A stretch of DNA of 64,000 nucleotides from Ferrimonas kyonanensis DSM 18153. GTDB lineage: Bacteria > Pseudomonadota > Gammaproteobacteria > Enterobacterales > Shewanellaceae. Below the pieces are notes generated by a model that did not search any database, was not told the DNA's origin, and worked only from the letters and a program-made list of their open reading frames with translations. The position numbers were made by a program, and so were the translations under genes. Location of the stretch: positions 372,001 to 436,000 of the forward strand of contig NZ_AUDJ01000002.1 of assembly GCF_000425405.1 (NCBI RefSeq), in the 5' to 3' direction. Of the stretch, positions 15,394 to 51,041 are shown piece by piece. The stretch's first letter is position 1. Each line of letters opens with the position of its first letter.

Positions 15394-15422
15394 CCCCAAA
15401 GGGCCGCTTAAGTCCTTTGGGG
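15394..15422. terminator. Convergent hairpin
   Basis: CCCCAAAGG pairs with CCTTTGGGG around an 11-base loop, between the convergent DUF3313 and SEC-C genes. There is no long T-run on either side. Confidence 0.45.
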
Positions 15423-15430
15423 GAATGCCG

Positions 15431-15763
15431 TTAGCCGCAGCACTTTTTGTACTTCTTGCCACTGCCGCAGGAGCAGGGGTCATTGCGGCCCGGCGTCTTC
15501 TCGAACGTGGTGGTGGTAGGCTTGTTGAGCCAGCTTTCTAATTCCAGCAAGTTCTCATTTTCATCAGGGTTGACCGTAATGGTGGCAACCAGTTGGTGCT
15601 GTTCAATCTGTGCCTGAACCTCTTCCTGGCGCGCCTGAGTCTGAACACTCAGTGTCAGAGGGTGCTCTTTGGTGCCGAGGATGGCAGTGCGGTTGGTGTT
15701 GTAGCCGTAGCTTTCGTGCTTGGGCTTTTTCTCGATGCGGCCTTTGTAGAAGAATTTGGACAT
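15431..15763 (-). CDS. PBPRA1643-type SEC-C metal-binding protein
   Basis: A protein of 110 residues. The N-terminus ([20 protein letters not shown]) and C-terminus ([16 protein letters not shown]) match a small gammaproteobacterial family that ends in a SEC-C zinc-binding motif with the ligand pattern CxCxxxxxxxxCC. In SecA the same motif binds zinc and helps contact SecB. The biological role of this small family is not known. It is single and convergent with the DUF3313 gene. The identification is strong because both ends match. Confidence 0.85.
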
Positions 15764-15851
15764 GGGAAACCTAGTGCTGAAACCTGAGGCAGAGGGTTAT
15801 ACAGCAAATGGTGGCGGGAGAAAAGCACCAGGATGGACAGAGAGCCAGCAT

Positions 15852-15878
15852 CCCCCCGACAGGATAACTGTCGGGGGG
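15852..15878 (-). terminator. Hairpin ending the Fur-linked operon
   Basis: A perfect 11-bp stem (CCCCCCGACAG / CTGTCGGGGGG) with a 5-base loop, 9 bp past the stop of the last operon gene. A T-run is absent, but stem strength and position make it the likely 3' end. Confidence 0.6.
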
Positions 15879-15887
15879 AGCAGAGGC

Positions 15888-16451
15888 TTATTGATCGGCG
15901 ACCAGCAGCACGGCGTATTGACCCTGACTGAATGTCGGCCCCTGGTTTATCACTAGGCCATCGGCGGCATCAAACACAAACACGTCACTGCCGGTGCCGG
16001 CCGGGGTGCTGCTCCAGAAGCTGGCCTGAACATTGCCTAGGTAGCTGTCAAACGCACCGGCAAAGGCCTGATCGTTGATGGCCGGGTAATGGCAGGCGGC
16101 CTCTTTCAGCGACACCAGCTCTTTGATGTTGGGCAGGCGCCAGGATTGGATGCCGGCAAACTGGTGCAGGGCGTGGCCGCTGCTGCTGTTGATGGCCTGC
16201 ACTTCATTGAGCGCCGATGGCCACAGCATGCCGCTGCTGCTGCCCTGGCAGCGACCGCTGGCTTTATCCCAGGTTTTGCCAATGGGGCAACGCATCCAGG
16301 TGAGGCCGGTTTTCAGGTCTTTGACGATGCCGGAGTCGTATTTTGCGAACCGAGCATTGGGCGCGGTCATGTCCATATCCGATTGGCAGTTCTGTGCCAT
16401 GGCGGCGCTGCTCAACAGGGCGAGGATGGAGGTGATAATAATGCGTTTCAT
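15888..16451 (-). CDS. Secreted DUF1566 (Lcl C-terminal type) protein
   Basis: A protein of 187 residues with a signal peptide (IIITSILALLSSAAMAQ). The rest is one DUF1566 domain, recognised by the spaced patterns DLKTGLTWMRCPIGKTWD, WRLPNIKELVSLKEAACHYP and FWSSTPAG. Such domains occur in secreted or surface proteins; a defined biochemical role is lacking. It starts 3 bp after the stop of the DUF1566 lipoprotein gene and is the last gene of the five-gene operon. Two DUF1566 proteins in one iron-regulated unit suggest surface partners of the receptor or protease, which is inference. Confidence 0.82.
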   Translation of the reverse strand: MKRIIITSILALLSSAAMAQNCQSDMDMTAPNARFAKYDSGIVKDLKTGLTWMRCPIGKTWDKASGRCQGSSSGMLWPSALNEVQAINSSSGHALHQFAGIQSWRLPNIKELVSLKEAACHYPAINDQAFAGAFDSYLGNVQASFWSSTPAGTGSDVFVFDAADGLVINQGPTFSQGQYAVLLVADQ

Positions 16452-16454
16452 GAT

Positions 16455-17906
16455 TTAATCCTTGGTGGCGACCAGACGAGTTGGGAACAGGTAGGAGTAG
16501 CCCTGATCTGCTGCGGAATCTGAAGTGTAGAGTTCGATGGTTTCAATGTATCCGCGATAGCTTCCCATCGAACTGACGAGGTTGTATTGCACGCTGCCGT
16601 CTGTCTGATAAGCGGAGTAGGCGTTGTAGGACAGGCTGTTGGTCCAGACGCTGCCTTGTTCGACGTCCGGGCTGCCCAGACTCTGGTGGGGGAACAGGGC
16701 CGTGGACAGAGCCATGACATCGTCGTTGCTATTGGTTTCTGTTACCCCGAGGTTGAGCAAGTTGTAGAACTCGTTGCCTGTGGGCAGACGCCAGCGGTCG
16801 CTGCCACAGAGTTGGTCAGTACTGAGTTGCTTGGCATAGTCAGCGGTAGTGCAGATGCTATCGCCAGCCTGCTGGCAGCCAGCTTCTGCCAGGTCGTCGG
16901 CGTAGGGGCTGAAGTGGCCGTCGATCTGCAGCGCAAACAGCCGGTCTTTGTACTGAAGGTCACTGGAGACGTCGGATTTTACTTCCCACATCAGGCCACT
17001 GCGTTTATCCAGCACGCAGCGCCATTCCGAGGCGTCGGCGGCCAGTTCATTGCCGTCTTTATCCAGTTTGACCAGCTTAAAACCGGCTTTACTCTGTCCC
17101 TGAGGATCGCTGGCATCCAGGCCGTGTTCGGCATCCTGGCCTGGGTAGTCAGGCTGAGGTTCGATGACATCTTCGCTGGCGGAACTGTCGCTGAAATACC
17201 GATAAACCCCGGTGTCATTCAGTGCCACCGTTTCAGTTTCAAGCTGCTCAAGTTGAGCGATCAACGCGGTGATCTCGCCGTTATCACTGCTGGCTTGCGC
17301 CAGGCTGGGAGCAACGGCCAATGTCAGGCCCAGTGAGGCCAGCACCGTCTCCCGATTGTTGTCATTCAGTTGCTTCAGCAGGCCAACCAGATTGGCGTCC
17401 ACAGTCGCCAGACCGGCGTCATCGCTGTTGTCCAGCAAAGCCGCCGGGACGGGAACGCCGAGGCGCTGTATCTCATTGACCACCAGTTCGGTGGCTTGCT
17501 CCAGGGTGACGCCGGTGCTGATCAGGCCAGCGATTACCGTGGTGATGGCGTTGATGTCGTTGCCGGTTTCCAGCTTACGGGCCGGCGCCACCAAACTGGC
17601 TTTGGCGGCGGCCCCGGCTACGTCGTTGTCAAATGCGGCCACCAGTGGTGAGGTCAAAATGTTCTTGTCGGTGCTGGTGAGGGTAAAGCTGCCACTGCTG
17701 GCAGTGCTGGCCGGTTCGCCGCTGTCGCAACGGAAGTTCTGGTTCAAATCGGCGCACACCTGGGCTTGCTGAGCCACGTTGTTACTGGTGACCTCACCGC
17801 TCACGCTGTAGGTGGGCGCCTGATTGTCAGAGCCGCCGGAGCCACCGGATCCGCCGCAGCCGACCAGGGCGACGCTAATGGCCATGCAAAGTAGAGTCTG
17901 TTTCAT
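16455..17906 (-). CDS. DUF1566-domain lipoprotein
   Basis: A protein of 483 residues. The start at 17906 has AAGAG upstream and gives a clean lipoprotein signal (AISVALVGCGGSGGSGGS, cysteine 17); the frame continues upstream but overlaps the protease gene. After the glycine linker comes a segment VSGEVTSNNVAQQAQVCADL with CDSGEPASTASSGSF, like a carboxypeptidase-regulatory or prealbumin-like fold. A helical middle follows (about 90-240), then a C-terminal DUF1566 domain (SGLMWEVKSD, WRLPTGNEFYNLLN, VWTNSLSYN). It is probably exposed at the outer membrane. It is fourth in the operon, 16 bp after the protease. Confidence 0.8.
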   Translation of the reverse strand: MKQTLLCMAISVALVGCGGSGGSGGSDNQAPTYSVSGEVTSNNVAQQAQVCADLNQNFRCDSGEPASTASSGSFTLTSTDKNILTSPLVAAFDNDVAGAAAKASLVAPARKLETGNDINAITTVIAGLISTGVTLEQATELVVNEIQRLGVPVPAALLDNSDDAGLATVDANLVGLLKQLNDNNRETVLASLGLTLAVAPSLAQASSDNGEITALIAQLEQLETETVALNDTGVYRYFSDSSASEDVIEPQPDYPGQDAEHGLDASDPQGQSKAGFKLVKLDKDGNELAADASEWRCVLDKRSGLMWEVKSDVSSDLQYKDRLFALQIDGHFSPYADDLAEAGCQQAGDSICTTADYAKQLSTDQLCGSDRWRLPTGNEFYNLLNLGVTETNSNDDVMALSTALFPHQSLGSPDVEQGSVWTNSLSYNAYSAYQTDGSVQYNLVSSMGSYRGYIETIELYTSDSAADQGYSYLFPTRLVATKD

Positions 17907-17922
17907 GGGGTTCTCTTCTTGT

Positions 17923-20163
17923 TTATTGATGTGAAAAACGACGGAAGGCCAGGGGCAGCAGTGCCAGCAGTGCCAGCCACAGAGCGCCGCCACCGGACGA
18001 TCCGGATGGAGTCGGGGTTGGGGGAGTGCCGCAGTCATAATCGCTGATGCGACCCACGCCCCAGCGGGTCAGGGTGCCGGCATCCCCGGGTTGATAATCG
18101 TTAAACTCGAAACGCCAGGCGCCCTGAAGGGGCTCGCCTTTGAGCCTTGCCAGTCCTTGATGGTGCTTGAGTAACAGGGTGGTGGTTAATGTGCTGTCCA
18201 GGCTGGAGGAGGCCGAGCGCAGTGTCACGCGAGTGCCGGAGGGGGACACCAGGTTAATGGTCAGGTCTTCCATGTTGTCATGCTGCAGGCTCAACTGAAC
18301 GGCAAACTCGTCTTCCACGACCGCCTCAGTATCATTGATGATGAAATTCAGCGATTTGAATCCGGCGTTCTGACGGCCATCACTGCCGACAACGGCGTCG
18401 GGCAGGATCAGGTTGCCGGTTTGGGGAGCCTGATCCAGTTGCGGCAGGCCGTTGATCATCCACTGGCTGGCGCTGTGCTGCTCCGGTTTGAGATCGTCGC
18501 CGTATTGAACGTTCATTTCCGCGGTTAGGGTGAAGGGGGCGCCGCAGGCCAGGTCATTGGGCAGAGGCAGAGTGAGATCCAGGCGTTCAAAGTCCTGTTT
18601 ATCCAGATCCTGGCTGCCGCCGGCAGAGTTGGACAGTGTGCCAATAACCTGTCCTTGACGATGGGTGGCCAGCAGGGAGACCTTGGCAGGTTGACCCGGT
18701 TCAACAAAGGGGGCATCACTGGTCAGGATAAAGGGCGCGGACATCAGGCCGTGTTGGCTGAAGTGGTGCTGGAACAGGCTCTGATAGTCCTTGGTCGGAA
18801 ACATCTCTCCCGCCAGGGTCACGATGTTGGCGGCCATATCCGCCATCTTTACGCCGCGACCGACGCCATAGAAGGCTTGCAGGATGATGCTGTCGATGTC
18901 ATCGAAGGCATCGGAGCCTTCGGCGGCAACCGCGGCCTTCAATGTTTGAAACAGCGGTGTCGACCACAGTTCGTCGCTCAACTCGCCAGCGACACTTTCG
19001 TGGGCTCGGTATTCGGCGGTGGGGATGTACCTGGCGCGAGTGTTGTTGAGGCTGCGGGTGTGCTGTTTAAACCCGAACCAGCCATCCCAGTTGAACACGG
19101 TGTCCAGTTCAAAAGCGGTATCCTGACTGTGTTGCTGGCGATAGCTGTGCGCCCCGGCCCAGTAATCACCGAACCCTTCTCCCAGCGCCTCGGAATGGCC
19201 ATAGGCCCAGTCCGCAACGATGTGGTAGTTGATGGCATGGCCAAGTTCATGCAACACGATGTCGGCATCGAAGGCATCGGGAGAGCCGCCGATGCCAAAC
19301 ACCAGGGTATCCACATCGATGAGGTAGGTGGAGTTGTCTTTGTTGATGCCACGGCCATCGAATTTGAGAGGCTCACTGAATACCGAAAACCCCAGTGAGG
19401 TCAATCGTTGCAGGGCACGGTCCAGGTGGTGGAAGGCCATGGTGTGGGCAAAGCGGTCGTTGTTCATGTCGACGGCGGCCAGTTGCGCCAAGCTATCGAA
19501 TCGACTCAGCCCTTCCTGAGGCAAATAGTCGCTGTCGATGTCGGCGTCAGCCTCGCCCACAGCCGGAGTCAGAAGGTGTTGAATATCCACCTCCCGAACC
19601 CGGTCGTTGGCCAGATAGAAGCCGTCTTCAGCGGAATGAACGACGGCAGCAACCTGCTGGTATTGTGCAGCAAACGGGTAGTCGCTGAGCTGCTTATAAG
19701 GGCTTTCTGGCGCCTCGGAACGGTTCATGGTGCGCAAATCGGGATTGAACACCTGAAGGGTGGCATCAACGGCGACCAGAGGACCGGGAATTTCGGTAGC
19801 CACCAGAGTTCTGGGGTGCTCCAGTTCTGCGGCGGTGGTGGGTTTGCCGTCGCGAAGGACGGTGTCTTCTAAGCTGACGAAAACTTTAACCAGTTCATGG
19901 TCGTTGTTGGTCGTGGCCACCAAGGTCCGCTGCTGCTGGTATTGACCCTGTTTCCAGACATCGAAATGGTAGTGACGGCCTAGCGGGCTTTGCGATTGGT
20001 ACCTGAGTTTCAGGTCGCCAGCTTGTGGGTAACGTTGCTCGAGGAAGGCCTCGATGCTATCGGCGCTGCTGAGCACTTGTGGCTGCGCGAAATGGTCCCA
20101 CTGACCGGCAGTGGCCATGGAGCTGCACAGTGCCAGAGACAGCAGAGAAAAACGATAAGTCAT
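17923..20163 (-). CDS. Secreted M36-like metalloprotease with P domain and GlyGly-CTERM
   Basis: A protein of 746 residues. A signal peptide (about 1-19) is followed by a propeptide-like region (20-190). A gluzincin catalytic site follows: HELGH at 305-309 gives two zinc-binding histidines and the catalytic Glu, with a third ligand, probably E329, in GEGFGDYWA. This spacing fits the M36 fungalysin group. A P/Homo B domain lies at about 600-715 (LTINLVSPSGTRVTL, WRFEFNDYQPGDAG). The tail is a proline-rich linker, SSGGGALWLALLALLPLAF and an arginine, which matches GlyGly-CTERM signals. Known proteins of that type leave by type II secretion and are trimmed by a rhombosortase. An AAGGAG site precedes the ATG. 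Confidence 0.87.
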   Translation of the reverse strand: MTYRFSLLSLALCSSMATAGQWDHFAQPQVLSSADSIEAFLEQRYPQAGDLKLRYQSQSPLGRHYHFDVWKQGQYQQQRTLVATTNNDHELVKVFVSLEDTVLRDGKPTTAAELEHPRTLVATEIPGPLVAVDATLQVFNPDLRTMNRSEAPESPYKQLSDYPFAAQYQQVAAVVHSAEDGFYLANDRVREVDIQHLLTPAVGEADADIDSDYLPQEGLSRFDSLAQLAAVDMNNDRFAHTMAFHHLDRALQRLTSLGFSVFSEPLKFDGRGINKDNSTYLIDVDTLVFGIGGSPDAFDADIVLHELGHAINYHIVADWAYGHSEALGEGFGDYWAGAHSYRQQHSQDTAFELDTVFNWDGWFGFKQHTRSLNNTRARYIPTAEYRAHESVAGELSDELWSTPLFQTLKAAVAAEGSDAFDDIDSIILQAFYGVGRGVKMADMAANIVTLAGEMFPTKDYQSLFQHHFSQHGLMSAPFILTSDAPFVEPGQPAKVSLLATHRQGQVIGTLSNSAGGSQDLDKQDFERLDLTLPLPNDLACGAPFTLTAEMNVQYGDDLKPEQHSASQWMINGLPQLDQAPQTGNLILPDAVVGSDGRQNAGFKSLNFIINDTEAVVEDEFAVQLSLQHDNMEDLTINLVSPSGTRVTLRSASSSLDSTLTTTLLLKHHQGLARLKGEPLQGAWRFEFNDYQPGDAGTLTRWGVGRISDYDCGTPPTPTPSGSSGGGALWLALLALLPLAFRRFSHQ

Positions 20164-20172
20164 GTCAGCTCC

Positions 20173-22311
20173 TTAAAAAGCGTAGCGCGCGTTGAGGGTG
20201 AAGTAACGACCGGGCTGGGTGGAATACCAGCTTTGGTCCGCCGCTGTGCCGGCCACATCCTGATAACGGGTGTATTTGCGGTCGAACAGGTTGAACAGGG
20301 TGAGGCTGAGATCCAGTGAGTCCAGCAGTTGATAGCTGACGCCCATGTCCACGCTGGCCCAGCCGGAGGTAGACGCACAGGCCACTTCAATGCCGATATC
20401 GCTGCTGCAGCTGGGGGTTTTGTCCATGGCGGCGGCCCAGTTGATTCGGGCAAAACCCGATAGGGTGTCATCGGCGTAGTCCAGTGTTAGTGAACCTTCA
20501 ATGGGGGTCATGGTGCGGATGTAGTTGTCCTGGTCGTCCTTGCCCCAGACCACGCCGGCCTTACTGTTCAGTTGCCAGTGGTCAGTGAAGCGATAGCCCA
20601 GCGTCAGCTCGGCGCCATAGGTTTTAACGCCGTTAAGATTTTCGTATTGTCTGAGAGTCAGTTCCTGATGTTCTGGGTCTCGACCAATATCTTGAACATC
20701 AATAAAGTCATCAAAGGTTGAGTAGAAGGCGGCCACGTAGACCAGCCAACGGCCGTCATCGAATTTGCTGCCGATCTCCAGGTTGTCGCTGGTCTCCGCT
20801 TTCAGCTCCAGGTTTGGAATAAGAATGAAGGGAGTTATGGGCACAAAATCATGATTGTTGTACCCAAAAACTTTGTCGTAGGTCGGGGCCCGATAGCCGT
20901 GGTTGTAGCTGGCGTACAGGTTCCACGAAGGGTTCCACTGGTAGCCCAGAGACAGGCTTGGCGACAGCTCCTGGCTGGTGTTGTCGTCAACAGTAACGCC
21001 GCCGATGCTGTTTTGACCGTCAGGTTTGAGTTGATGCAGGTCGAATCTGAGCCCCGGGGTCAGGGTCCATGCACCTTTGGTGATTACGTCGCGCCAGTAC
21101 ACGCCCAGGGTGTTGGACTTTGCCGGTACGAACGGCACGTACTCCGTTGGCTGAAAGCCGTTCCAGTCGATGATGGTTTTGTGAATGGGGCGCTGATGCT
21201 CGGTAGACTCGGCCAGCACACCATAGGCCATCTGATGGTCGTAGCCCAGCCAAGAGACCTGCTTAAGCAAGTTGGCCGACAGGCCGGTGAGCTGGTCGTT
21301 GAACTTTCGGGTTTCTATTTGCCGCCGTTTTACGGTGATGTCGTTACGGTGTTGGTACATCAGCACGTTTTTATCGGCATCGTTCTGGCTGTCGCGCCAA
21401 TAGAGTTTGCTCTCCAGGCTGTCATAGAAACCGTCGACGCGATCGTGCTCGAGTCCCACATAGGCTTCGAGCGAATCGCTTAATGTCTGTTCCCAAAATG
21501 TTTCGGCATGCCAACCTCCATCGAGCTGCATCAATGCGGTGCCCTCATTGCGGGTCATCTGCTCCCGGTAGTAGCTGGCCTTGGCGCGCAGCAGCAGATC
21601 GTCGCTCCAGTAGTGGGACAGGGTAAAGGCGCCGCTGTAGCCGTCGATGTCGCGGTTGTAGTTGCTGCTGTCATGGTTGTTGGACTCCGAGCCATTCCAG
21701 TAGGCGGCGCGCAGCAGGCTGTCGGTATTACCAAACCGGGTGGCGAGGGTAGCGGTGCCACGGGCCTTATCGCTGATGCCGGTATAGGTGGCGTCGGCGC
21801 CGATGTAGAGATCCTTATCTTTCAGGTAGTCTTCCGCGGTTTTGGTGGTAACCATGACCACGCCGCCGATGGCGCCGGATCCAAATACCGATGAGCTGGC
21901 GCCTTTGACCACCTCAATCTGTTTTACTTCGCTCAGGTCAAAGCTGTTGCGGCCAACGTTGTCGTTCAGATCGTTGGCGCCGTAGCCGTCGGTCACTCGA
22001 ATGCCGTCCTTGACCACGGCAATGCGGTTGCCGGTCATGCCTCGAATGACGATGTTTTGTGGGCGGCCGGCGCCACCGGTTACGGCAACGCCAGGTTCCC
22101 GGTTTAGAACGTCATACAGCTCGGTTGCCCCTTCTCGTTCAATGGTGTCGGCATCGATCACGGCGACTGACCCGGCGGTTTTGGAGAGTGACTGCGAGAC
22201 TTTATTGGCGGTGACCACCACTTCGTTGAACTCGGTGGCGGCTTCTTCACCGCAGGCGGCGGTGGTGGCCATGGCGCTCATCAGCGCCAGGCTCAAGGGG
22301 GAAAGTTTCAT
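20173..22311 (-). CDS. TonB-dependent receptor, haem/haemoprotein type
   Basis: An outer-membrane gated channel of 712 residues. Signal peptide (about 1-20), TonB-box-like segment (NEVVVTANK), plug domain (30-155, with VIRGMTGNRIAVVKDGIRV and VVKGASSSVFGSGAIGGVV), then a 22-strand barrel ending in the aromatic FTLNARYAF. YRAP at 473-476 and PNLELKAE at 499-506, with a histidine between (NNHDF), resemble the FRAP/NPNL signature of haem and haemoglobin receptors. Its ATG overlaps the stop of the S9 peptidase gene, and the protease follows after 9 bp. Iron control through the upstream Fur box is expected. The substrate is inferred from motifs only. Confidence 0.9.
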   Translation of the reverse strand: MKLSPLSLALMSAMATTAACGEEAATEFNEVVVTANKVSQSLSKTAGSVAVIDADTIEREGATELYDVLNREPGVAVTGGAGRPQNIVIRGMTGNRIAVVKDGIRVTDGYGANDLNDNVGRNSFDLSEVKQIEVVKGASSSVFGSGAIGGVVMVTTKTAEDYLKDKDLYIGADATYTGISDKARGTATLATRFGNTDSLLRAAYWNGSESNNHDSSNYNRDIDGYSGAFTLSHYWSDDLLLRAKASYYREQMTRNEGTALMQLDGGWHAETFWEQTLSDSLEAYVGLEHDRVDGFYDSLESKLYWRDSQNDADKNVLMYQHRNDITVKRRQIETRKFNDQLTGLSANLLKQVSWLGYDHQMAYGVLAESTEHQRPIHKTIIDWNGFQPTEYVPFVPAKSNTLGVYWRDVITKGAWTLTPGLRFDLHQLKPDGQNSIGGVTVDDNTSQELSPSLSLGYQWNPSWNLYASYNHGYRAPTYDKVFGYNNHDFVPITPFILIPNLELKAETSDNLEIGSKFDDGRWLVYVAAFYSTFDDFIDVQDIGRDPEHQELTLRQYENLNGVKTYGAELTLGYRFTDHWQLNSKAGVVWGKDDQDNYIRTMTPIEGSLTLDYADDTLSGFARINWAAAMDKTPSCSSDIGIEVACASTSGWASVDMGVSYQLLDSLDLSLTLFNLFDRKYTRYQDVAGTAADQSWYSTQPGRYFTLNARYAF

Positions 22312-24323
22312 TGACTGCTCCGCTTATTGGATTGAGTGGCCATCAGCAAGAAGGCGTACTCACGGGCTTGCTGCTCCGAGGCGTTGCGATGGTCACTGCT
22401 GTGACCGCCGGTGAAATCGGTACTCAGCAGGTAGGGGCCTTGGCCGGTACTGATGGCTTCGAGGCGGCTGAGGTATTTGGCGCCTTCCCAATAGGGAACA
22501 CGGCGATCATTGAGGCCGACCCGCACCAGCATGGGCGGGTAGGGCAGTGGCCTCAGGTTGCTGATGGGGTCGTAGGCTTTTATGAACTCGAGTTGCTCGG
22601 GCACGGCGGGATTGCCCCACTCCTGGTGCTGTTGCGATGACAGCGGCAGGCTCGAATCACTCATGCTGGCGAGGACATCGACAAAGGGCACCTGCAGCAC
22701 CACGGCATCGAACAGACTGACATCCTGATTCAGTGCCGCGGCTACCAAGGTACCGCCAGCGCTGCCACCAATAGCGCCGATGGGGTGGTTGCCACCGTTG
22801 AAATGCCTCAGGGCTTTGGCACTGGCAAGATAATCGGAGATGGCATGCTGTTTGTTGGCGCCAATCCCATCCAGATGCCAGGGCTCGCCCAGATAGCCAC
22901 CGCCGCGAACGTGGGCCACCGCGTAGATGGCACCCCGATCCAGCAGGCTGATGATCTGTGGCATGAAATAGGGGCGCATGGTGACGCCATAGGCGCCGTA
23001 GCCGTACAGAATGACGGGTGAGGTAGCCGTCATGGCGTCTTTACGGTACGCCAGGGTGACGGTGACTTTCACATGGCCGGAGTCGACCTGTATTTGCTCG
23101 CTGTGGTACAGGTCGGCATTGAAATGTGGATAGTGATCCTGGGACAAGGTCTGCCAGGACAGGTCGGTGAGATTCAGTTCGCGCCATTTTGGTGGCGTAA
23201 TCATCGACATCGAGCGGATGCGCAAACGGTTGCTGGCGTAATCACCGTTGCGACTGACCCAGGCCACGCCATTGGCTTCGCCAATGGCCATCGACTTCAC
23301 CAGTGTGCCATCGGGACTCAGAATCTGCAGCCAGCGCTTGGGACCGAGTTTTGTCACGGCTACGGTGGCCGCCTGAAACAGGTAATAGTTGTCCAACTGT
23401 TGGCCTTTCTGCGGCCGGTACAGCAATGACAACTTTTCTGGCTGAGTCAGTGGCGCCTGGTACAGAGCAAACTCGCCTTGATGATTGCTGTTAAGGTAGA
23501 GAGCGTCTCCGGCCACATCGGCGTAGTAGTCAATACCCTGTTGGCGCGGCAACAAGGCCGGGCTCAGGGTGCCATCTTTGAGATTGAGCAGTCGTTGTTC
23601 GGTGGCCAATTCGCTGTTGCTCTGAATGACGACATAGTTCGGATTGGCACTGCGGTACATCGACATCAGCCAGCCTGAATCGGTTTCATGCCACAACCGT
23701 TTTGGCTGTGGGCTTGATAGTGCCAGCCGGTACAGGCCGTCGGGACGCAGGGTGTGGGTTTCCTGGCCAATCAGGTACAGCGCCTTGGAGTCCCCGGACC
23801 ATTGCAGATAGCTTTCCCATCGTTCTGGCAGCTGGGACTCCTGGCCAGTGGCCAAGGAGAGGACGCTGACCCGGTATTCGCCGCTGCCACTGATGTCTTC
23901 GGCCAATGCCAGCGACTGGCCGTCGGGGGACAGGCTCCAGGCGCCAAGTTGGTAATAGTCGAGGGCGTCGTCCCGTTGGTCCAGATTCAGCAGCGACCGT
24001 TGTTCACCGCCATTGCGGTTACGCTCGATCAGGGTGCGCTGGCCATCGACCACCACCACGCCGTACTCAAACTCACCACGGATTACCCAGGGTTTCGAGG
24101 CTTTGGTTGCGGCATTGTCGGACCATTGCTGCAGCAGTGCGCCGGTGAGGGCATGGTGCTCTGAAAAATAAGCATCACTGCGGCTGTTGTGTTGTTTCAG
24201 GTAGTCCAGTACTTGAGCCGAGCTGCGGCTGTCGTCTCTTAGCCAATTGAAATCAGTGTCTTGATTGGCCAGAGTGCCACTGCTGATCAGGGCGAGGCTA
24301 AGGCAGAGGGGAAACCAGTTCAT
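22308..24323 (-). CDS. Secreted S9 family prolyl oligopeptidase
   Basis: A serine peptidase of 671 residues that cleaves short peptides. Signal peptide MNWFPLCLSLALISSGTLAN, then a seven-bladed propeller (about 60-400) and an alpha/beta-hydrolase domain. The triad is visible: Ser in GGSAGG, Asp in VGLNDRRVPY and His in GGHSSDH. The frame runs 21 residues further upstream, but that extension lies across the Fur box and would bury the signal peptide, so I chose 24323 even though its ribosome site is weak. First gene of the operon; its stop overlaps the receptor start. Probably periplasmic, degrading imported or surface-released peptides. Confidence 0.9.
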   Translation of the reverse strand: MNWFPLCLSLALISSGTLANQDTDFNWLRDDSRSSAQVLDYLKQHNSRSDAYFSEHHALTGALLQQWSDNAATKASKPWVIRGEFEYGVVVVDGQRTLIERNRNGGEQRSLLNLDQRDDALDYYQLGAWSLSPDGQSLALAEDISGSGEYRVSVLSLATGQESQLPERWESYLQWSGDSKALYLIGQETHTLRPDGLYRLALSSPQPKRLWHETDSGWLMSMYRSANPNYVVIQSNSELATEQRLLNLKDGTLSPALLPRQQGIDYYADVAGDALYLNSNHQGEFALYQAPLTQPEKLSLLYRPQKGQQLDNYYLFQAATVAVTKLGPKRWLQILSPDGTLVKSMAIGEANGVAWVSRNGDYASNRLRIRSMSMITPPKWRELNLTDLSWQTLSQDHYPHFNADLYHSEQIQVDSGHVKVTVTLAYRKDAMTATSPVILYGYGAYGVTMRPYFMPQIISLLDRGAIYAVAHVRGGGYLGEPWHLDGIGANKQHAISDYLASAKALRHFNGGNHPIGAIGGSAGGTLVAAALNQDVSLFDAVVLQVPFVDVLASMSDSSLPLSSQQHQEWGNPAVPEQLEFIKAYDPISNLRPLPYPPMLVRVGLNDRRVPYWEGAKYLSRLEAISTGQGPYLLSTDFTGGHSSDHRNASEQQAREYAFLLMATQSNKRSSQ

Positions 24324-24369
24324 GATGAGTTTACGTTGCCGTCGAAAAGGTGGCGGCATAGTGCGATCA

Positions 24370-24400
24370 AATGATAATGAGATCAATTCTCATTATCATT
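24370..24400 (-). promoter_or_regulatory. Fur box
   Basis: A 13-5-13 inverted repeat: AATGATAATGAGA (24370-24382), spacer TCAAT, TCTCATTATCATT (24388-24400). Both arms carry the GATAAT/ATTATC hexamers of the Fur consensus. It lies 46 bp upstream of the S9 peptidase start, where iron-bound Fur would block the promoter of the five-gene operon. Confidence 0.88.
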
Positions 24401-24404
24401 AAAT

Positions 24405-24420
24405 TGTGATCGCAATCACT
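24405..24420 (-). promoter_or_regulatory. CRP-like binding site
   Basis: TGTGATCGCAATCACT fits TGTGA-N6-TCACA with one mismatch. It sits just upstream of the Fur box relative to the minus-strand operon, a usual place for activation by CRP-cAMP. Confidence 0.6.
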
Positions 24421-24614
24421 CGTTTGTTGGTTTGAGTGTCGATTATTTCGGCAGAAATCTAAGGCTGTTACCATTTAAGTGACGGTTTCAATGAAACTTT
24501 TCTGTCGATAGCTGAGTCAGTTGTGGCCTTGAGTCGATCAATAAAGGCGCTTGCATTTCCGCTGTTGGATTGTCAAAATTTGCATACAATATTCTATTTT
24601 TGTTAGGGGTAACG

Positions 24615-25844
24615 ATGACAGTGGGTGTGGGAGGCTCTACGGCAGAGCAGGAGTGGGCGCGACTGTCGAATCTCAGCGACAAGGCGCCTTCTATCAGTAA
24701 TGGCGAGTTCAAATTGCGAATGCAGCGGGCGGTGACCTTGATGCAGCGCCAGGGCCTGCGAGGCATCTATCTCAATGCGGGTACCAACCTGTACTATTTT
24801 ACCGGCCTCAAGTGGTCTGCGAGCGAACGAATGGTCGGCGCGCTGTTGCTGGACAGCGGTGAGCTGTTGTACATCGCGCCCCAGTTTGAACGGGACTCTT
24901 TGAGAGATTTCATGCAGATTGAAGCCCCGTTTCATGGCTGGCATGAACATGAAAACCCTGCCGAGCGGGTGGCGGCGTTATTGGCAGAGCGGGGCATCGA
25001 AACCGGCAAGTTGGCGATGGATGAATCGGCCGCTTTTTTCCTGTTTGATGGTTTGCGCCGGGCTTGCCCTCAGATTGAGTGGGTTAACGGCAGTTGCATC
25101 AGTGCCCGGTGCCGAATGATTAAGAGCGAGGCGGAGCTCGCCCTGATGCAGACCGCCAAAACCATGACTCTAGAGGTACAGAAATCCGCCGCCCGCATCT
25201 TGCGGGAAGGCATCACCACCACCGAAGTGACCGCCTTCATTCATGAGGCTCACAAACGGGTTGGGGCGCCGGGGGGCTCGTCGTTTTGCATCGTGCTGTT
25301 TGGGCTGGCGACCAGTTTCCCACATGGTGTCAAAGAGCCGCAGACCTTAAAACGCAATGACTGGGTGTTGATCGACACCGGTTGTCTGCTTCATGGTTAC
25401 AACTCCGACATTACCCGAACCTATTGCTTTGGTGAGCCCAGCGAGCGCCAGCGGCAGATGTGGCAGGTGGAGAAAGACGCCCAGGCGGCTGCCTTTGCGG
25501 CCGCGCAACTGGGACAGCCCTGTGAGGCCGCCGATGCCGCTGCTCGAGAGGTGTTGCAAGCCCATGGACTCGGTCCTGACTACCAGGTACCCGGGCTGCC
25601 ACACCGCACCGGCCATGGCTGTGGTTTGGACATCCATGAGTGGCCCTATCTGGTTAAGGGCGATCGGACGCCACTGGCCCCGGGCATGGTGTTCAGCAAT
25701 GAGCCGATGCTGGTCCTCCCGGGGGAGTTTGGCGTCCGTCTTGAGGACCACTTTTACATGACTGCGTCCGGTCCTCGTTGGTTTACCACCCCATCGCACT
25801 CTGTGGATGACCCATTTGGCTATCAGCTTGATGCAACTCATTGA
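24615..25844 (+). CDS. M24 family Xaa-Pro aminopeptidase/dipeptidase
   Basis: A metallopeptidase of 409 residues with the two-part creatinase/prolidase layout: an N-terminal domain (about 20-150) and a pita-bread catalytic domain. All five metal ligands are visible: two Asp in DTGCLLHGYNSDITRTY, His in TGHGCGLDIHE, Glu in SNEPM and Glu in RLEDH. The ATG at 24615 has AGGGG 5 bp upstream; an in-frame TTG at 24570 has none. No signal peptide, so cytoplasmic. It lies divergent from the Fur-linked operon and could finish digestion of proline-containing peptides, which is inference. Confidence 0.9.
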   Translation: MTVGVGGSTAEQEWARLSNLSDKAPSISNGEFKLRMQRAVTLMQRQGLRGIYLNAGTNLYYFTGLKWSASERMVGALLLDSGELLYIAPQFERDSLRDFMQIEAPFHGWHEHENPAERVAALLAERGIETGKLAMDESAAFFLFDGLRRACPQIEWVNGSCISARCRMIKSEAELALMQTAKTMTLEVQKSAARILREGITTTEVTAFIHEAHKRVGAPGGSSFCIVLFGLATSFPHGVKEPQTLKRNDWVLIDTGCLLHGYNSDITRTYCFGEPSERQRQMWQVEKDAQAAAFAAAQLGQPCEAADAAAREVLQAHGLGPDYQVPGLPHRTGHGCGLDIHEWPYLVKGDRTPLAPGMVFSNEPMLVLPGEFGVRLEDHFYMTASGPRWFTTPSHSVDDPFGYQLDATH

Positions 25845-25861
25845 TCCTGAATAACCCTTTT

Positions 25862-25881
25862 ACGCCCCGCCTTCGGGGCGT
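25862..25881 (+). terminator. Terminator after M24 peptidase
   Basis: ACGCCCCG pairs with CGGGGCGT around a CCTT loop, 17 bp past the stop. The following tract is only partly T-rich. Confidence 0.6.
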
Positions 25882-25922
25882 TATTGTCACTCCTTTGGAA
25901 TAGAGTTGTAACAAAGTCGGTT

Positions 25923-25951
25923 TTGACCTGTTGCTGTCCTGCCGCTAGTAT
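25923..25951 (+). promoter_or_regulatory. Sigma70-type promoter of M13 peptidase gene
   Basis: TTGACC (25923-25928), a 17-bp spacer and TAGTAT (25946-25951) lie about 50 bp upstream of the start codon. Confidence 0.6.
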
Positions 25952-25999
25952 CTGACTGTTTAAAACTAATTAGCTACAACAATTCATAAGGATATGCTG

Positions 26000-28063
26000 A
26001 TGAAACGCTTATTTATTGGTGGCTTGTGCGCCTCAGCTTTGGTACTGACCGGCTGTGCACAAAATGAACCGTCACAACCCACCGCCGTGGCCGAAGCAGT
26101 GCAGCAGCAATTGAGTTCCGGTATCGAGTTCGCCAACTTTGATACCAGTGTGCGTCCGCAAGACGACTTCTATTCCTACGTCAACGGCACCTGGCTGAAG
26201 ACCAGCGAGATCCCTGCCGATCGCACCAGCTCCGGTGCTTTCTACGATCTGCGTGAAAAAGCTCGCGATGACGTTAAGGTGATCATCGAAGACTTGGCTG
26301 CCAAGTCGAACCTGAAGGCGGGCAGCGATGAGCAAAAAGTGGGTGATCTGTATCGTTCCTTTATGGATACCGACAAGGTCAATGAACTGGGCCTGGCCCC
26401 GTTGAAACCGGAACTGGCCAACATCGCCGCCATCGACAGCAAAGCCGGGGTTGTGGCCTACTTTGCCCACAGCCAGACCATCGGAGCCGGCACACCGCTG
26501 GCGTTCTACATCAATGTGGACGCCAAAGATTCTGAGCGTTATGCCACTCACATCTGGCAAGCGGGCCTGAGCCTGCCGGATCGCGACTACTACTTCAACG
26601 ACGAAGCCCGCTTCGTGAAGTTGCGCGAAGGTTTCCTGGCGCACATGGAGAAGATGTTCACCATGGCTGGCGTCGCCAACCCGGCCGAGTCTGCCAAGAC
26701 CGTGATGGCCATCGAGACCAAACTGGCTAAGGGCCACTGGACCCGGGTTGAAAGCCGCGACAGTGAAAAACGCTACAACAAGTACCAGACCGCAGAGTTG
26801 TCCAAGTTGGCCAGCCACATCGATTGGGCGGTCTACCTGAAAACCATCGGCGGCGACAGCCAGTCTGACATCATCATCAACCAGCCAAGCTACATCGAAG
26901 CGCTGGACAAGGTGGTGGCCGAGACTTCGGTCGCGGATTGGAAAACCTACCTGACCTGGAATCTGCTCACTGCCTACTCTGGCATGTTGTCCCAGGAGTT
27001 TGACACCGAAAACTTTGAGTTCTTCGCCCGTAAACTGAACGGCCAGGAACAGCAGAAAGAGCGCTGGAAGCGTGGTGTTGCCCTGGTGAGTGACAACCTG
27101 GGTGAAGTGGTTGGCAAAGTGTATGTCGACAAGCATTTCCCGGCCGAAGCCAAGGCTCGCATGAAGGAGTTGGTTGAAAACCTGCGCAAAGCTTATGCGG
27201 TCAGCATCGATCAGCTGGAGTGGATGAGCCCGGAAACCAAGGTTAAGGCCAAAGAGAAACTGGCAGCCTTTACCCCGAAAATCGGTTACCCGGACCAGTG
27301 GGAAGATTACTCGGCCCTGAGCATCGACTCTGACGATCTGGTGGGTAACGTGATGCGCTCTGCCACCCTGGCTCACAACAAGGATCTGGAGAAGCTGGGC
27401 GGGCCAATTCGTCGCTACGAGTGGCACATGACCCCACAAACCGTCAATGCCTACTACAGCCCGGTAATGAATGAGATCGTGTTCCCCGCGGCCATTCTGC
27501 AACCGCCATTCTTTAACATGAACGCCGACGATGCCGTCAACTACGGTGGTATTGGAGCGGTTATCGGCCACGAAATGGGCCACGGTTTTGACGATCAGGG
27601 TGCGCGTTACGACAAAGACGGCAACCTGAAAAACTGGTGGACCGAATCGGATCTGAAGGCATTCCAGAAACGCGGCAGTGCCCTGGTGGCTCAGTACGAC
27701 GGCTATCAGGTGTTCGACGACCTGCACGTGAACGGCAAGCTGACCCTGGGTGAGAACATCGGCGACTTGTCCGGCGCCACCATCGCCTACAAAGCCTACA
27801 AGATGTCTCTGGAAGGCAAGCCGGCCCCGATCATCGATGATCTGACTGGCGACCAGCGCTTCTTTATCGGCTGGGGTCAGATCTGGCGTGGTAAATACAA
27901 GGAGCAGGCGCTGCGCAACCGGGTTGCGACCGATCCGCATTCCCCGTCTCAGTTCCGAGCCAATGGTCCTCTGTCCAACATGACCGAGTTCTACAGCAGC
28001 TTCGACGTCAAGCAGGGCGATGCCATGTATTTGCCTGCTGAGAAGCGCGTAAAGATTTGGTAA
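26000..28063 (+). CDS. M13 family metallopeptidase (PepO/neprilysin type), lipoprotein
   Basis: A zinc endopeptidase of 687 residues acting on oligopeptides. The ATG at 26000 is chosen because AAGGA lies 7 bp upstream; the ATG at 25994 is too close to it. The signal ends in a lipobox (SALVLTGCAQ), so it is anchored to the envelope. N-terminal half matches peptidase M13 N (FYSYVNGTWLKTSEIPADR), the substrate motif is VNAYYSP, zinc site VIGHEMGHGFDD, third ligand in GENIGDLSG. It is monocistronic with its own promoter and terminator. The coding strand shows strong codon bias, which leaves a long spurious antisense frame. Confidence 0.95.
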   Translation: MKRLFIGGLCASALVLTGCAQNEPSQPTAVAEAVQQQLSSGIEFANFDTSVRPQDDFYSYVNGTWLKTSEIPADRTSSGAFYDLREKARDDVKVIIEDLAAKSNLKAGSDEQKVGDLYRSFMDTDKVNELGLAPLKPELANIAAIDSKAGVVAYFAHSQTIGAGTPLAFYINVDAKDSERYATHIWQAGLSLPDRDYYFNDEARFVKLREGFLAHMEKMFTMAGVANPAESAKTVMAIETKLAKGHWTRVESRDSEKRYNKYQTAELSKLASHIDWAVYLKTIGGDSQSDIIINQPSYIEALDKVVAETSVADWKTYLTWNLLTAYSGMLSQEFDTENFEFFARKLNGQEQQKERWKRGVALVSDNLGEVVGKVYVDKHFPAEAKARMKELVENLRKAYAVSIDQLEWMSPETKVKAKEKLAAFTPKIGYPDQWEDYSALSIDSDDLVGNVMRSATLAHNKDLEKLGGPIRRYEWHMTPQTVNAYYSPVMNEIVFPAAILQPPFFNMNADDAVNYGGIGAVIGHEMGHGFDDQGARYDKDGNLKNWWTESDLKAFQKRGSALVAQYDGYQVFDDLHVNGKLTLGENIGDLSGATIAYKAYKMSLEGKPAPIIDDLTGDQRFFIGWGQIWRGKYKEQALRNRVATDPHSPSQFRANGPLSNMTEFYSSFDVKQGDAMYLPAEKRVKIW

Positions 28064-28085
28064 TCTAGCGTCACGCTGATGTAAC

Positions 28086-28110
28086 ACACCCCGCTTCGGC
28101 GGGGTGTTTT
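28086..28110 (+). terminator. Intrinsic terminator after M13 peptidase
   Basis: ACACCCCGC pairs with GCGGGGTGT around a TTCG tetraloop, followed by TTTT. Confidence 0.88.
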
Positions 28111-28314
28111 CGTTTCAGCGTCTTAACAAATATGAGGCCAACGACATGTTGAGCCTTTATTGGGGAGAGCATCGGGTCGCCTTATCGACACAGTAGGGGA
28201 CCGATGATTTGGGCTTGGGCGTGCCGGCTGCATTGCAGACGGGCAACCGAGCCGACCGTGGATTGCCTGCGTGCAATTGCATTAACACCATTATTATAAA
28301 ATTAGGATGAGATG

Positions 28315-29505
28315 ATGAAACTGTCCGTATTGAGTCTGGCGCTGGCCGCCGTTGCCGCGCCCGCCGTGGCTGTTGTGGGTATGGATGCGAAGAGCGGCGG
28401 CGCCGCCAACACCGGCATCGCCAGTGGTGACTTCACCCGGGCGCCGCTGAACCCGGCGCTATTGACCAAGTTTAAAGACAGCGATGATGTCTATCTGAGG
28501 CTGGGCGTTGGGGCGCTGGCTAAAGAGTATGAAGACGCACTCGATCAGGTGGATGCCACCCAGGACGCCATCGATGCGTTCGAAGCCAAGATTGAAGCGA
28601 TGGATCCGGCCAACCCACCGACTCAGGCGGATGCCGATGCCCTGATCAAGGAGTTGCAGGCGCTGGACGACACCACCCTGGTTGGGGAGGCCAATCTGGA
28701 CTTCGGCGTATTCGTGCCCAGTAAGTCGCTGGGGTTTGGCGTAACCATCGGTGGTTATGTGGTGGCCAACGGCGATTTTAACTACGACGCTGCCGATGGT
28801 CAGTTGGTCAACGACGCGCTCACCACCGGGGTGTTTGATCCGGATAACCTCAAATCTGAGGGCATCGCCCATGCGGTGGCAGTCAGTGAGTTGGCCCTGT
28901 CGTTTGCCCACCAGGCCAACCTGCCTCGGGTCGGCGATATCGCCTTTGGCCTCAGTGCCAAGTACCAGCGTTTCGACAGCTATCTGTATACCGCTAACAT
29001 CAACAACTACGATAACGACGACTACTTCGATGATCAGTACATGAACGACAAAGGCGCGTTCAATATGGATCTGGGGATCTACAAGCCTTATGGCAACTGG
29101 AGCTTTGCTCTGGTGGCCCGGAATCTGATCAAGCAATCGATCAAGAACATCGATGGAGACAAGATTTCACTGGATCCGACCGTCGTTGGGGCGGTGGCTT
29201 GGAGTCAGGGCATGTTCACCGGCACCATGGAGTTGGATCTGATCGAGGATGAGTCCTTTGTGGTGAAAGGCGATGCCCCGCAACTGCTGCTGGCCCGTCA
29301 GTACGCCCGGGCTGGTATGGAGGTGGATTTCTCCCACCTGCAACTGCGGGCCGGTTATCAGACCGATTTGTCCAGTAACTACGGCGATCTGCTGACTGTG
29401 GGGCTGGGGATCTCGCCCTGGGATACCATCAGCCTGGATCTGGCCGGCCAGTTTGGTGACGACGACGAGCGTGGCGCCATGCTGCAGTTGGGTGTGAAGC
29501 TGTAG
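28315..29505 (+). CDS. TraF-like outer-membrane beta-barrel protein
   Basis: A protein of 396 residues, annotated in relatives as conjugal transfer protein TraF, though no conjugation genes are near. Signal peptide (MKLSVLSLALAAVAAPAVAV), then GMDAKSGGAANTGIASGDF and APLNPALL, typical of this FadL/PorV-like barrel family. A helical insert (about 65-120, EDALDQVDATQDAIDAF) is followed by barrel strands to the end (GDDDERGAMLQLGVKL). I chose the second of two adjacent ATGs because AGGA is 7 bp from it. Monocistronic with a strong terminator. Function is not established. Confidence 0.82.
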   Translation: MKLSVLSLALAAVAAPAVAVVGMDAKSGGAANTGIASGDFTRAPLNPALLTKFKDSDDVYLRLGVGALAKEYEDALDQVDATQDAIDAFEAKIEAMDPANPPTQADADALIKELQALDDTTLVGEANLDFGVFVPSKSLGFGVTIGGYVVANGDFNYDAADGQLVNDALTTGVFDPDNLKSEGIAHAVAVSELALSFAHQANLPRVGDIAFGLSAKYQRFDSYLYTANINNYDNDDYFDDQYMNDKGAFNMDLGIYKPYGNWSFALVARNLIKQSIKNIDGDKISLDPTVVGAVAWSQGMFTGTMELDLIEDESFVVKGDAPQLLLARQYARAGMEVDFSHLQLRAGYQTDLSSNYGDLLTVGLGISPWDTISLDLAGQFGDDDERGAMLQLGVKL

Positions 29506-48938: not shown

Positions 48939-51041
48939 ATGCGTACCAAAGTTTCCCTGATTGCCCTTGCGGTCTCCTTTGCGGTTCATGCCCAAGAGAT
49001 CGAAACCATCACCGTTAATGCCGATCTTCGCAACATCGAGCTGGAGCAGTTGCCTGGCTCAGCCACCGTGGTCGACAGCCAGGCCATCAAAGATGAAGGT
49101 GGTGAACACTTCGAACAGATACTGGACTCGATTCCGAACCTGAACTGGTCCGGTGCCACCTCTCGTCCCCGTTACTTCCAGATCCGTGGTGTCGGTGAGC
49201 AGGAGGACTACAAGGGGGCGCCCAACAGCTCGGTCGGCTTTATCGTCGATGACATCGATCTGTCCGGGCTGGGAATGGCTGCCAGTCTGTATGATCTGCA
49301 GCAGGTAGAGGTGCTTCGTGGCCCTCAGGGTACTCAGTACGGTGCCAACGCCCTGGCGGGGCTTATCTATGTGAAAAGCATGGATCCCAGCGACGAATTT
49401 GAGTCTGGCCTGACCGCCACCCTGGCCGAAGACAACCAACAGACCTACGGTGGCTATGTCTCCGGTGCGGCCACCGACACCCTCAACTACCGGGTAATGG
49501 TGCACTCTAACCAGCAGGATGGCTTTCGCGACAACCTCTATCTGGGCCGGGACGACACCAACGCCCGCGATGAACTGACCCTGAGAACCAAGTTACTGTG
49601 GCAACCTAGTGACCGACTGCAGGCCAAATTGACTTTCCTGCACGCGGATCTGGATAACGGCTACGACGCCTGGACCCTGGACAACAATGGTTTTGACACC
49701 ATCACCGACAACCCGGGAGAGGACTCTCAGCGCACCAATGGCGCATCGCTGAACCTGAACTACGACATCAATGAGGCGCTGGCGCTGCGGGCCATTACCA
49801 GCTGGAGCAACACTCACGCCACTCACGCCTACGACGGTGACTGGGCCAACGACGACTATTGGGCCGACCGCACCTGCTATGGCGAGCCCTGTGTCTATGT
49901 CTATAACTGGAGCAAGGCTCTGAAACGCGACACCCTAAGCCAGGAGTTGCGCCTCAGTTCCCGCGAAGCGGGACGCATCTTTGCCGGTACCACCGACTGG
50001 CTGGTGGGGGTGTATGCCAACGATTTGCAAGAATCGAACTACCTGGCCATTACCGAAGCCTACGACGCCAGCGGCAGCTACTTCTCGGATCAAAGCTCCG
50101 ACTACGACGCCGACAGCCAAGCGGTGTTTGGTCAACTGGACAGCAGCCTGGGTCGCTGGACCCTGTCCGCTGGCCTGCGCCTGGAACAGCGCGATGCCAG
50201 CTACCGCGACAGCAAAGGTGAGGCCTTCGACACCGACGAGTCGATGTGGGGCGGTCACTTGTCGGCCAGCTATCAGTTCAATGCCGACCATAACGGCTAT
50301 GTACGGGTGGCCCGAGGTTACAAGGCCGGTGGTTTTAACATGGGGCTGCCGGAGTTTCTGTCTGACAAGACCCAGTACGACACCGAGACCCTGTATAACT
50401 ATGAGATCGGGTTGAAAAGCCGTTGGCTGGACGGGGCGCTGACGTCGGCGCTGGCACTGTTCTACATGGACCGTCAGGACCAGCAGGTGGAAGCGTCGGT
50501 TCAGGAGCCGGGCAGTGGCGATTTTGTGCTGTACACCAGCAACGCCACCGACTCCAATAACTACGGCGCCGAACTGGAGCTGAATTACCAGGTGACGGAG
50601 TCATTGCAGCTGCACGGCAGTGTCGGCTGGCTGGAAACCGAGTACGGTGACTACGTGCTGCAGCTGGGAGAAGACAGTTTCCGGGATCTCAGTGGCCGCG
50701 AGCTGGCCCATGCGCCCAACTATCAGTTTGCCGTCGGCGCCACCTACCGTCACGACCAGGGCTGGTTTGCCAATGTGAACCTGTCCGGTAAAGACGAATT
50801 CTACTACTCCGACAGCAACGATTCGGTGTCCGACCCCTACCAGGTGCTGGACGCCAAAATTGGCTACGAAGCCAACAGCTGGTCGCTGTACCTGTGGGGG
50901 CGTAACCTCACCGATGAGAAATACGGCGTGCGTGGCTTCTACTTCGGTAACGAGCCGGATCAGGACTGGGCCGACAAACAGTACATCCGTTACGGCGATC
51001 CTCAGCAGTTCGGCGTGACCTTTAACTACGACTATTTCTAA
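48939..51041 (+). CDS. TonB-dependent receptor, thiamine-regulated
   Basis: An outer-membrane receptor of 700 residues. The signal peptide (about 1-18) is followed by IETITVNADLRN (TonB-box-like), the plug (30-150: LPGSATVVDSQAIKDEGG, VEVLRGPQGTQYGANALAG) and a barrel ending in the aromatic FGVTFNYDYF. Barrel loops are rich in aspartate and tyrosine (YDGDWANDDYWADRT). As first gene behind a TPP riboswitch, it is inferred to import thiamine or a derivative. Three more thiamine genes follow on the same strand. Confidence 0.93.
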   Translation: MRTKVSLIALAVSFAVHAQEIETITVNADLRNIELEQLPGSATVVDSQAIKDEGGEHFEQILDSIPNLNWSGATSRPRYFQIRGVGEQEDYKGAPNSSVGFIVDDIDLSGLGMAASLYDLQQVEVLRGPQGTQYGANALAGLIYVKSMDPSDEFESGLTATLAEDNQQTYGGYVSGAATDTLNYRVMVHSNQQDGFRDNLYLGRDDTNARDELTLRTKLLWQPSDRLQAKLTFLHADLDNGYDAWTLDNNGFDTITDNPGEDSQRTNGASLNLNYDINEALALRAITSWSNTHATHAYDGDWANDDYWADRTCYGEPCVYVYNWSKALKRDTLSQELRLSSREAGRIFAGTTDWLVGVYANDLQESNYLAITEAYDASGSYFSDQSSDYDADSQAVFGQLDSSLGRWTLSAGLRLEQRDASYRDSKGEAFDTDESMWGGHLSASYQFNADHNGYVRVARGYKAGGFNMGLPEFLSDKTQYDTETLYNYEIGLKSRWLDGALTSALALFYMDRQDQQVEASVQEPGSGDFVLYTSNATDSNNYGAELELNYQVTESLQLHGSVGWLETEYGDYVLQLGEDSFRDLSGRELAHAPNYQFAVGATYRHDQGWFANVNLSGKDEFYYSDSNDSVSDPYQVLDAKIGYEANSWSLYLWGRNLTDEKYGVRGFYFGNEPDQDWADKQYIRYGDPQQFGVTFNYDYF

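Follow-up and report, generated by a model that had tools for sequence, protein, structure and literature searches.

The closest described relatives of the operon reported here are in Vibrio. Mey and Payne, in 2001, reportedly described in V. cholerae an iron-regulated locus, ptrB-hutR, in which a protease II gene is followed by a haem receptor gene. In V. vulnificus, hvtA is the second of five ORFs, ptrB, hvtA and VV2_1550-1552, for which RT-PCR evidence of co-transcription is reported (PMC6813434). The same report describes a putative Fur box upstream of ptrB and qRT-PCR measurements in which hvtA goes up at low iron and is unresponsive in a fur mutant; VV2_1550, VV2_1551 and VV2_1552 are left there as 'hypothetical'. 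According to a review, HvtA is a minor haem receptor repressed by Fur (PMC8706444), and deletion of hvtA is reported to have lowered virulence only marginally (PMC6813434).

The hutR gene is VCA0064 (PMC6855506), and the next locus tag, VCA0065, has been studied separately, as one of six V. cholerae GlyGly-CTERM proteins. It is described as a putative Zn-metalloprotease whose abundance in the medium drops 5.4-fold when rhombosortase is mutated, and is called RpoH-regulated (PMC6219818). Elsewhere its level in rhombosortase-mutant medium is given as 2.5-fold lower, not significantly, and the protein is placed in the culture supernatant, being absent from membrane fractions (PMC13393428). The word 'heme' occurs nowhere in the main texts of PMC6219818 and PMC13393428. 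VCA0065 is also named in PMC11389362, while PMC3120857 contains it only via an unrelated locus range. A search for the downstream genes by locus tag gave no discussion beyond the hvtA and VCA0065 papers cited, and no paper joining a haem receptor with a GlyGly-CTERM protease was found, which is weak evidence of absence as subscription papers were mostly outside its scope.

The window analysed here is a stretch of 64,000 nucleotides (64 kb), whose minus strand holds five genes, all head to tail, between 24359 and 15888 (Table 1). In the order S9-TonB-protease-LclA-LclB, the intergenic gaps are -4, 9, 16 and 3 nt. The stop of the S9 gene and the start of the receptor gene overlap by 4 nt, and the PtrB-like S9 gene thus adjoins the receptor gene. 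When the coordinates were re-read, the five minus-strand genes, their order and their tight spacing came out as the initial annotation had given them; of its gap range of -3 to 16 bp, the upper bound is right, and the smallest gap is -4. The G+C content is 58% in the operon versus 55% in the window. The hairpin at 15851..15879 has no T run behind it and is absent from the terminator scan list. Signal peptides, the lipobox and the GlyGly-CTERM were assigned by eye rather than with a predictor.

Table 1 Features of the operon and of related loci (window coordinates unless locus names are given)
Feature	Position	Strand	Basis
S9 (PtrB-like) serine oligopeptidase	22308..24359	-	PF00326 and PF02897 above cut-off
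TonB-dependent haem receptor, HutR/HvtA type	20173..22311	-	TIGR01785 and TIGR01786 above cut-off
Secreted zinc metalloprotease, M36-like, with P-domain and GlyGly-CTERM tail	17923..20163	-	P_proprotein above cut-off
LclA, Lcl_C (DUF1566) lipoprotein	16455..17906	-	PF07603 above cut-off
LclB, Lcl_C (DUF1566) secreted protein	15888..16451	-	PF07603 above cut-off
Hairpin 3' of the final stop codon	15851..15879	-	12-nt perfect arms, 5-nt loop
Fur-type operator	24370..24400		perfect 13-nt inverted repeat, 5-nt spacer
CRP-like site AGTGATTGCGATCACA	24405..24420	-	9/10 consensus bases
Block missing from sister G302	15809..24579		blastn vs L097
Stand-alone pairs, Lcl_C lipoprotein-like and small Lcl_C	L068, L069, L070, L072, L073, L074, L075

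As the hvtA operon is described, the window operon has a ptrB-like gene first, a TonB haem receptor second, three more ORFs and a Fur-type site upstream. The receptors are nearly equal in length, 711 aa in HvtA and 712 in the window. The V. cholerae ptrB-hutR locus, in which a PtrB-type gene is likewise said to precede a haem receptor gene, is a counterpart. Because the hvtA operon, described as co-transcribed and under Fur, and V. cholerae ptrB-hutR appear to be of the same kind, the unit is not unnamed, as had been supposed at first: the hvtA operon begins with the same two genes and counts five ORFs (PMC6813434). It is a member of the HutR/HvtA operon type, which reaches beyond Vibrio. Whereas the last three ORFs are described as 'hypothetical' in the hvtA operon, those of the window, their probable counterparts, encode a metalloprotease with GlyGly-CTERM and the two Lcl_C proteins, and they lie in the same order in the named Vibrio records L080 and L081. 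Like VCA0065, the window protease is a secreted putative metalloprotease with GlyGly-CTERM; the locus tag and the synteny seen in Vibrio, rather than aligned sequences, suggest that the two are equivalent. What seems new here is that the HutR/HvtA papers are tied to the GlyGly-CTERM papers and that the three 'hypothetical' genes are given probable identities.

Conservation was examined in a sample of 295 genomes of the order, searched with the protease, LclA and the receptor (receptor at E<=1e-80); each search scored no more than the best three to five candidates of a genome, so misses are possible. Protease and LclA lie side by side in 21 of the 295 genomes, the window's genome included. The 25 loci considered below are the window, 20 other sample loci and four named records (two Vibrio, Aeromonas caviae and Pseudoalteromonas piscicida) found via the receptor in a plasmid collection. 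The order S9-TonB-protease-LclA-LclB is found in 10 loci (window, L044-L050, Vibrio L080 and L081), TonB-S9-protease-LclA-LclB in 12 (L052-L059, L064-L066 and L082, the last from A. caviae), and TonB-protease-LclA-LclB in three (L051, L067 and L083, the last from P. piscicida). In L051 and L067 the contig end falls within the receptor gene, and no S9 match was found within the 20-kb locus L083. The check proposed in the initial annotation, a search for the gene order in other genomes, thus succeeded: a conserved order was found in 25 loci, the window counted, and the window's own five-gene order in 10 of them.

Each of the 19 sample genomes whose receptor match is close (E<=1e-130) has protease and LclA next to it, and the two further operon genomes of the 21 are those with receptors cut by the contig end. 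The next-best receptors (E ~1e-94, 30-33% identity) are at other places in the genomes. In L060-L063, four protease relatives of greater distance stand with no other operon gene nearby, and the protease query gave a single weak match, to a MAG, among the named genomes. The unit can decay, since genome G001 (L049, 4573-14344) has an S9 frame with an internal stop and an interrupted LclA; gaps ahead of LclB and of the longer piece of LclA are long in this copy, which looks decayed. LclA of L049 and the receptors of L051 and L067 were left out of the alignments.

Regulation by iron is suggested by the Fur-type operator upstream of the S9 gene, a perfect inverted repeat that bears out the Fur box said to be shared by the five genes. 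A 29-nt pattern made from this site has a single match in the window at <=3 mismatches, and none in 100 shuffles. By plain identity the site agrees with the 19-base Fur consensus at 14/19, equalled by one of 191 other window blocks. When the best match was taken from 300 nt upstream to 30 nt inside the first gene, all 23 loci in which the upstream region is complete gave 13-16/19. The match is unrivalled by other blocks of its own locus in 18 of the 23; in the remaining five, blocks as good as the match amount to 1/191 (window), 3/57, 10/57, 2/57 and 4/53. The core of the V. vulnificus Fur site, as printed, recurs in several S9-first loci.

The CRP link that had been claimed also has its site, a CRP-like sequence with 9/10 consensus bases just beyond, and upstream of, the Fur operator; none of 211 other 300-nt minus-strand blocks of the window scores as high. 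Among the nine other S9-first loci, six have a CRP-like match of 8-10/10 slightly upstream of the Fur site, two of them at 8/10, a score reached also by 4/63 and 5/58 other blocks, and three are at background. Control by CRP is not common to the loci as a whole, because the TonB-first ones reach only 6-8/10 (a range given without a background count). These sites point to an operon that would be controlled by Fur and probably tuned by CRP besides.

The receptor scores 404.3 bits against TIGR01785 (cut-off 316.85) and is also above the cut-off of TIGR01786, both haem/haemoglobin receptor families, so that its earlier designation as haem-type holds. The YRAP and PNL motifs named before are both present, arranged as YRAP...His487...PNL, the His between the two motifs being invariant. 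Two Cys as well as His359 and His487 are kept in 23/23 sequences, and the top PDB sequence match is PhuR (8the). ChuX/HutX and FecCD-type permease genes lie ~4 kb apart on contig 3 of the same genome, and would suit an inner haem route without proving it. Other TonB receptor genes were seen as well. Downstream of an RND efflux pair on contig 1 of the window's genome (L079, 8227-14091), a class-V aminotransferase gene lies between two receptors ~30% identical to that of the operon. At 48939-51041 of the window lies another TonB-dependent receptor gene with weak similarity to the haem receptor.

The third gene had been called an M36-like protease with GlyGly-CTERM. Against Peptidase_M36 (PF02128) it scores 22.6 bits, just missing the gathering cut-off of 23.3, and is therefore filed as M36-like only; three of nine orthologues match Peptidase_M36 at E<=0.01. 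A proprotein-convertase P-domain (P_proprotein over cut-off) had been overlooked. The HExxH residues His305, Glu306 and His309 and the downstream Glu329 are identical in 25/25 sequences. By eye, with no model run, the C-terminus reads as the GlyGly-CTERM claimed, that is, a Gly/Ser-rich motif, a hydrophobic stretch and a basic tail, and a GG pair lies within the last 60 residues in 24/25 proteases, L083 being the one without. Rhombosortase is encoded in the same genome (TIGR03902, 152.1 bits, cut-off 84), and at E<=1e-20 it is found in 21/21 operon genomes versus 182/295 overall, counts that ignore genome kinship.

In the genus, the operon is present in one of 14 genomes, the window's own, which alone has the protease at E<=1e-20, and in the sister genome G302 the flanking genes are 150 bp apart with the operon absent. 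On the left, a small ORF (15431-15763), presumably SEC-C-like from its Cys motif, is 91% identical in G302; on the right, an M24 peptidase gene (24570-25844) is 90% identical. When window positions 10001-32000 were compared by blastn with the 8-kb sister locus L097, only 15395-15808 and 24580-29108 aligned. Thus, 8.8 kb with the five genes and the promoter region is present here and missing in G302. Because one genus member in 14 has the protease and the flanks are 150 bp apart in the sister, the operon was probably gained as a single cassette; the alternative, that the 13 relatives lost it, is less economical. A mobile-element origin of the cassette was considered and set aside, as direct repeats in 15700-24600 were short and mostly diverged, and no long repeat lay at the cassette ends, among the 20 of 54 repeat families listed.

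Divergently from the operon, an M24 (creatinase/prolidase type) and then an M13 peptidase gene occupy 24570-28063 of the window. Membership of the two genes in the operon was rejected: tblastn at E<=1e-3 gave no match to them, neither in a first set of 21 loci nor in a second of 20. The M24 gene is found in nine of the 14 genus members, just one of which has the protease. Both genes are therefore taken as host flank, being without a match in operon loci while M24 is common in the genus without the protease.

From the anatomy, the conservation, the kept active sites and the block-like presence of the operon, a working in five steps can be proposed. First, low iron would free the Fur operator for one transcript, as five-ORF co-transcription and control by Fur and iron are described in V. 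vulnificus. Second, the metalloprotease may be exported by Sec and T2SS, be cut by rhombosortase at its GlyGly-CTERM, and open haem-bearing proteins on or near the surface; VCA0065, its presumed counterpart in V. cholerae, is reported to depend on rhombosortase for its abundance in the medium. Third, the TonB receptor would import the freed haem, in the way that HvtA serves V. vulnificus as a receptor for haem, and protease and receptor would then work on the same substrate. Fourth, the exported S9 oligopeptidase may degrade peptides that enter with haem. Fifth, and weakest, the lipoprotein LclA and the smaller LclB may hold or present the substrate at the surface.

With modest confidence, we favour reading the locus as a complete HutR/HvtA-type haem-acquisition operon that is Fur-controlled and probably CRP-tuned, was gained as one cassette, and works in these five steps. 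In calling it one haem-acquisition unit under a Fur operator, the initial annotation is upheld by the conserved order and the receptor family score, and corrected in that the system has a name. Against it, VCA0065 is reported in supernatant and not in membranes, and is called RpoH-regulated, so that tethering at the surface and control by iron are both uncertain. The description of HvtA as a minor receptor and the marginal virulence effect reported also count against this reading.

The role of the Lcl_C pair is the least certain. LclA and LclB score 44.1 and 86.2 bits against PF07603 (gathering cut-off 34.9), so the DUF1566 lipoprotein and DUF1566 secreted protein named before are both borne out, under the present Pfam name Lcl_C. 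LclA has a lipobox-like VGC (by eye), with Cys at the lipobox column in 24/24 sequences, and four Cys of LclB are invariant in 25/25. No His is common to all LclA or all LclB sequences, the best columns reaching 13/24 and 22/25, and a haemophore role for either is possible but not favoured. Structure prediction from the single LclB sequence gave a mean pLDDT of 35.8, and PDB searches with LclB alone and with LclB and LclA profiles returned no credible match. Legionella Lcl, the one Lcl_C protein for which a study was found, shares the Lcl_C domain and is described as a glycosaminoglycan-binding adhesin that has collagen-like repeats and whose C-terminal domain is free of disulfide bonds (PMC11162425); unlike it, LclB has the four invariant Cys, and neither LclA nor LclB shows collagen-like repeats by eye. 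In seven of eight other Lcl loci, eight similar pairs were found with no receptor or protease match nearby, some of them near the locus end and hence with one short flank. The Lcl pair is thus not haem-specific, and together with the glycosaminoglycan binding reported for Lcl, the stand-alone pairs favour, as a first guess by analogy, a substrate-holding or adhesive role.

In L068, L069 and L072, the pair lies beside a similar gene run that includes a response-regulator-like gene (named from its N-terminal sequence). On contig 9 of the window's genome (L078, 8770-10416), a 548-aa protein has two Lcl_C matches in a different setting. The literature searches listed nothing that gives DUF1566 or GlyGly-CTERM proteins of these bacteria a role in relation to haem: DUF1566 with TonB-dependent and heme returned Leptospira papers only, and GlyGly-CTERM with heme returned only papers on other topics, as judged by title. 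A Shewanella paper gave nothing beyond expression tables (PMC3409153), and an Aeromonas DUF1566 protein is named as a vaccine candidate (PMC10383140).

The five genes could be co-regulated and yet uncoupled: the receptor would be limited to free haem, and protease and Lcl_C pair would be general factors of surface nutrition or adhesion, switched on when iron is low. Besides the stand-alone pairs and the Legionella adhesin, this would accommodate the RpoH regulation reported for VCA0065 (PMC6219818) and the description of HvtA as a haem receptor in accounts where the other operon genes do not figure in the tests (PMC6813434, PMC8706444). However, 25 loci keep the set together despite its changed internal order, it is present or absent as a single block at the window site, and protease and LclA accompany the close receptor in 19/19 genomes of the sample. 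We consider such uncoupling rather unlikely.

The S9 enzyme invites a different question, that of the cargo. Its N-terminus is signal-peptide-like (by eye), with a possible alternative start at 24323. Its best NCBIfam match, oligopeptidase B (NF007511, 358.8 bits), misses the equivalog cut-off of 1313 while the Pfam Peptidase_S9 cut-off is reached, and for this reason it is filed as S9, PtrB-like. The triad Ser533/Asp618/His653 is kept in 22/22 aligned frames, including that of L049 with the internal stop, and the gene adjoins the receptor gene in 22 of the 25 loci, by overlap or within 17 nt. PtrB/oligopeptidase-type enzymes act on short peptides, not folded proteins. Therefore, the enzyme is more likely to finish off peptides in the periplasm than to cut haem proteins outside the cell. 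The same peptide preference, the adjoining genes and the kept triad would also suit a haem-peptide or other peptide-bound iron ligand as cargo, trimmed by the protease, imported by the receptor and relieved of its haem by the S9 enzyme in the periplasm, but this is improbable, as the HvtA receptor is described as serving haem itself (PMC8706444) and in P. piscicida the receptor, the protease and both Lcl_C proteins are encoded in a locus with no S9 gene.

Returning to the haem-acquisition operon, a bolder form of it can be offered tentatively, and with some doubt: a mobile, self-contained module for haem piracy, in which a rhombosortase-processed protease and a two-part Lcl_C surface complex would be a machine dedicated to capturing and opening haem proteins right over a HutR-type receptor, while a periplasmic oligopeptidase clears the peptides. 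Porphyromonas takes haem by its gingipain/HmuY-HmuR strategy. If real, the module would be the gammaproteobacterial counterpart of that strategy, assembled from components of other descent, and would account both for VCA0065 and for the ORFs called 'hypothetical' next to hvtA.

The literatures on haem receptors (HutR/HvtA) and on GlyGly-CTERM proteins (VCA0065) treat apparently neighbouring genes, which the conserved operon unites with two Lcl_C proteins. It makes testable whether the protease helps the receptor to use protein-bound haem, and would give the DUF1566 pair a first physiological setting. This concerns aquatic Vibrio, Aeromonas and Pseudoalteromonas, which encounter haem proteins of fish and invertebrates.
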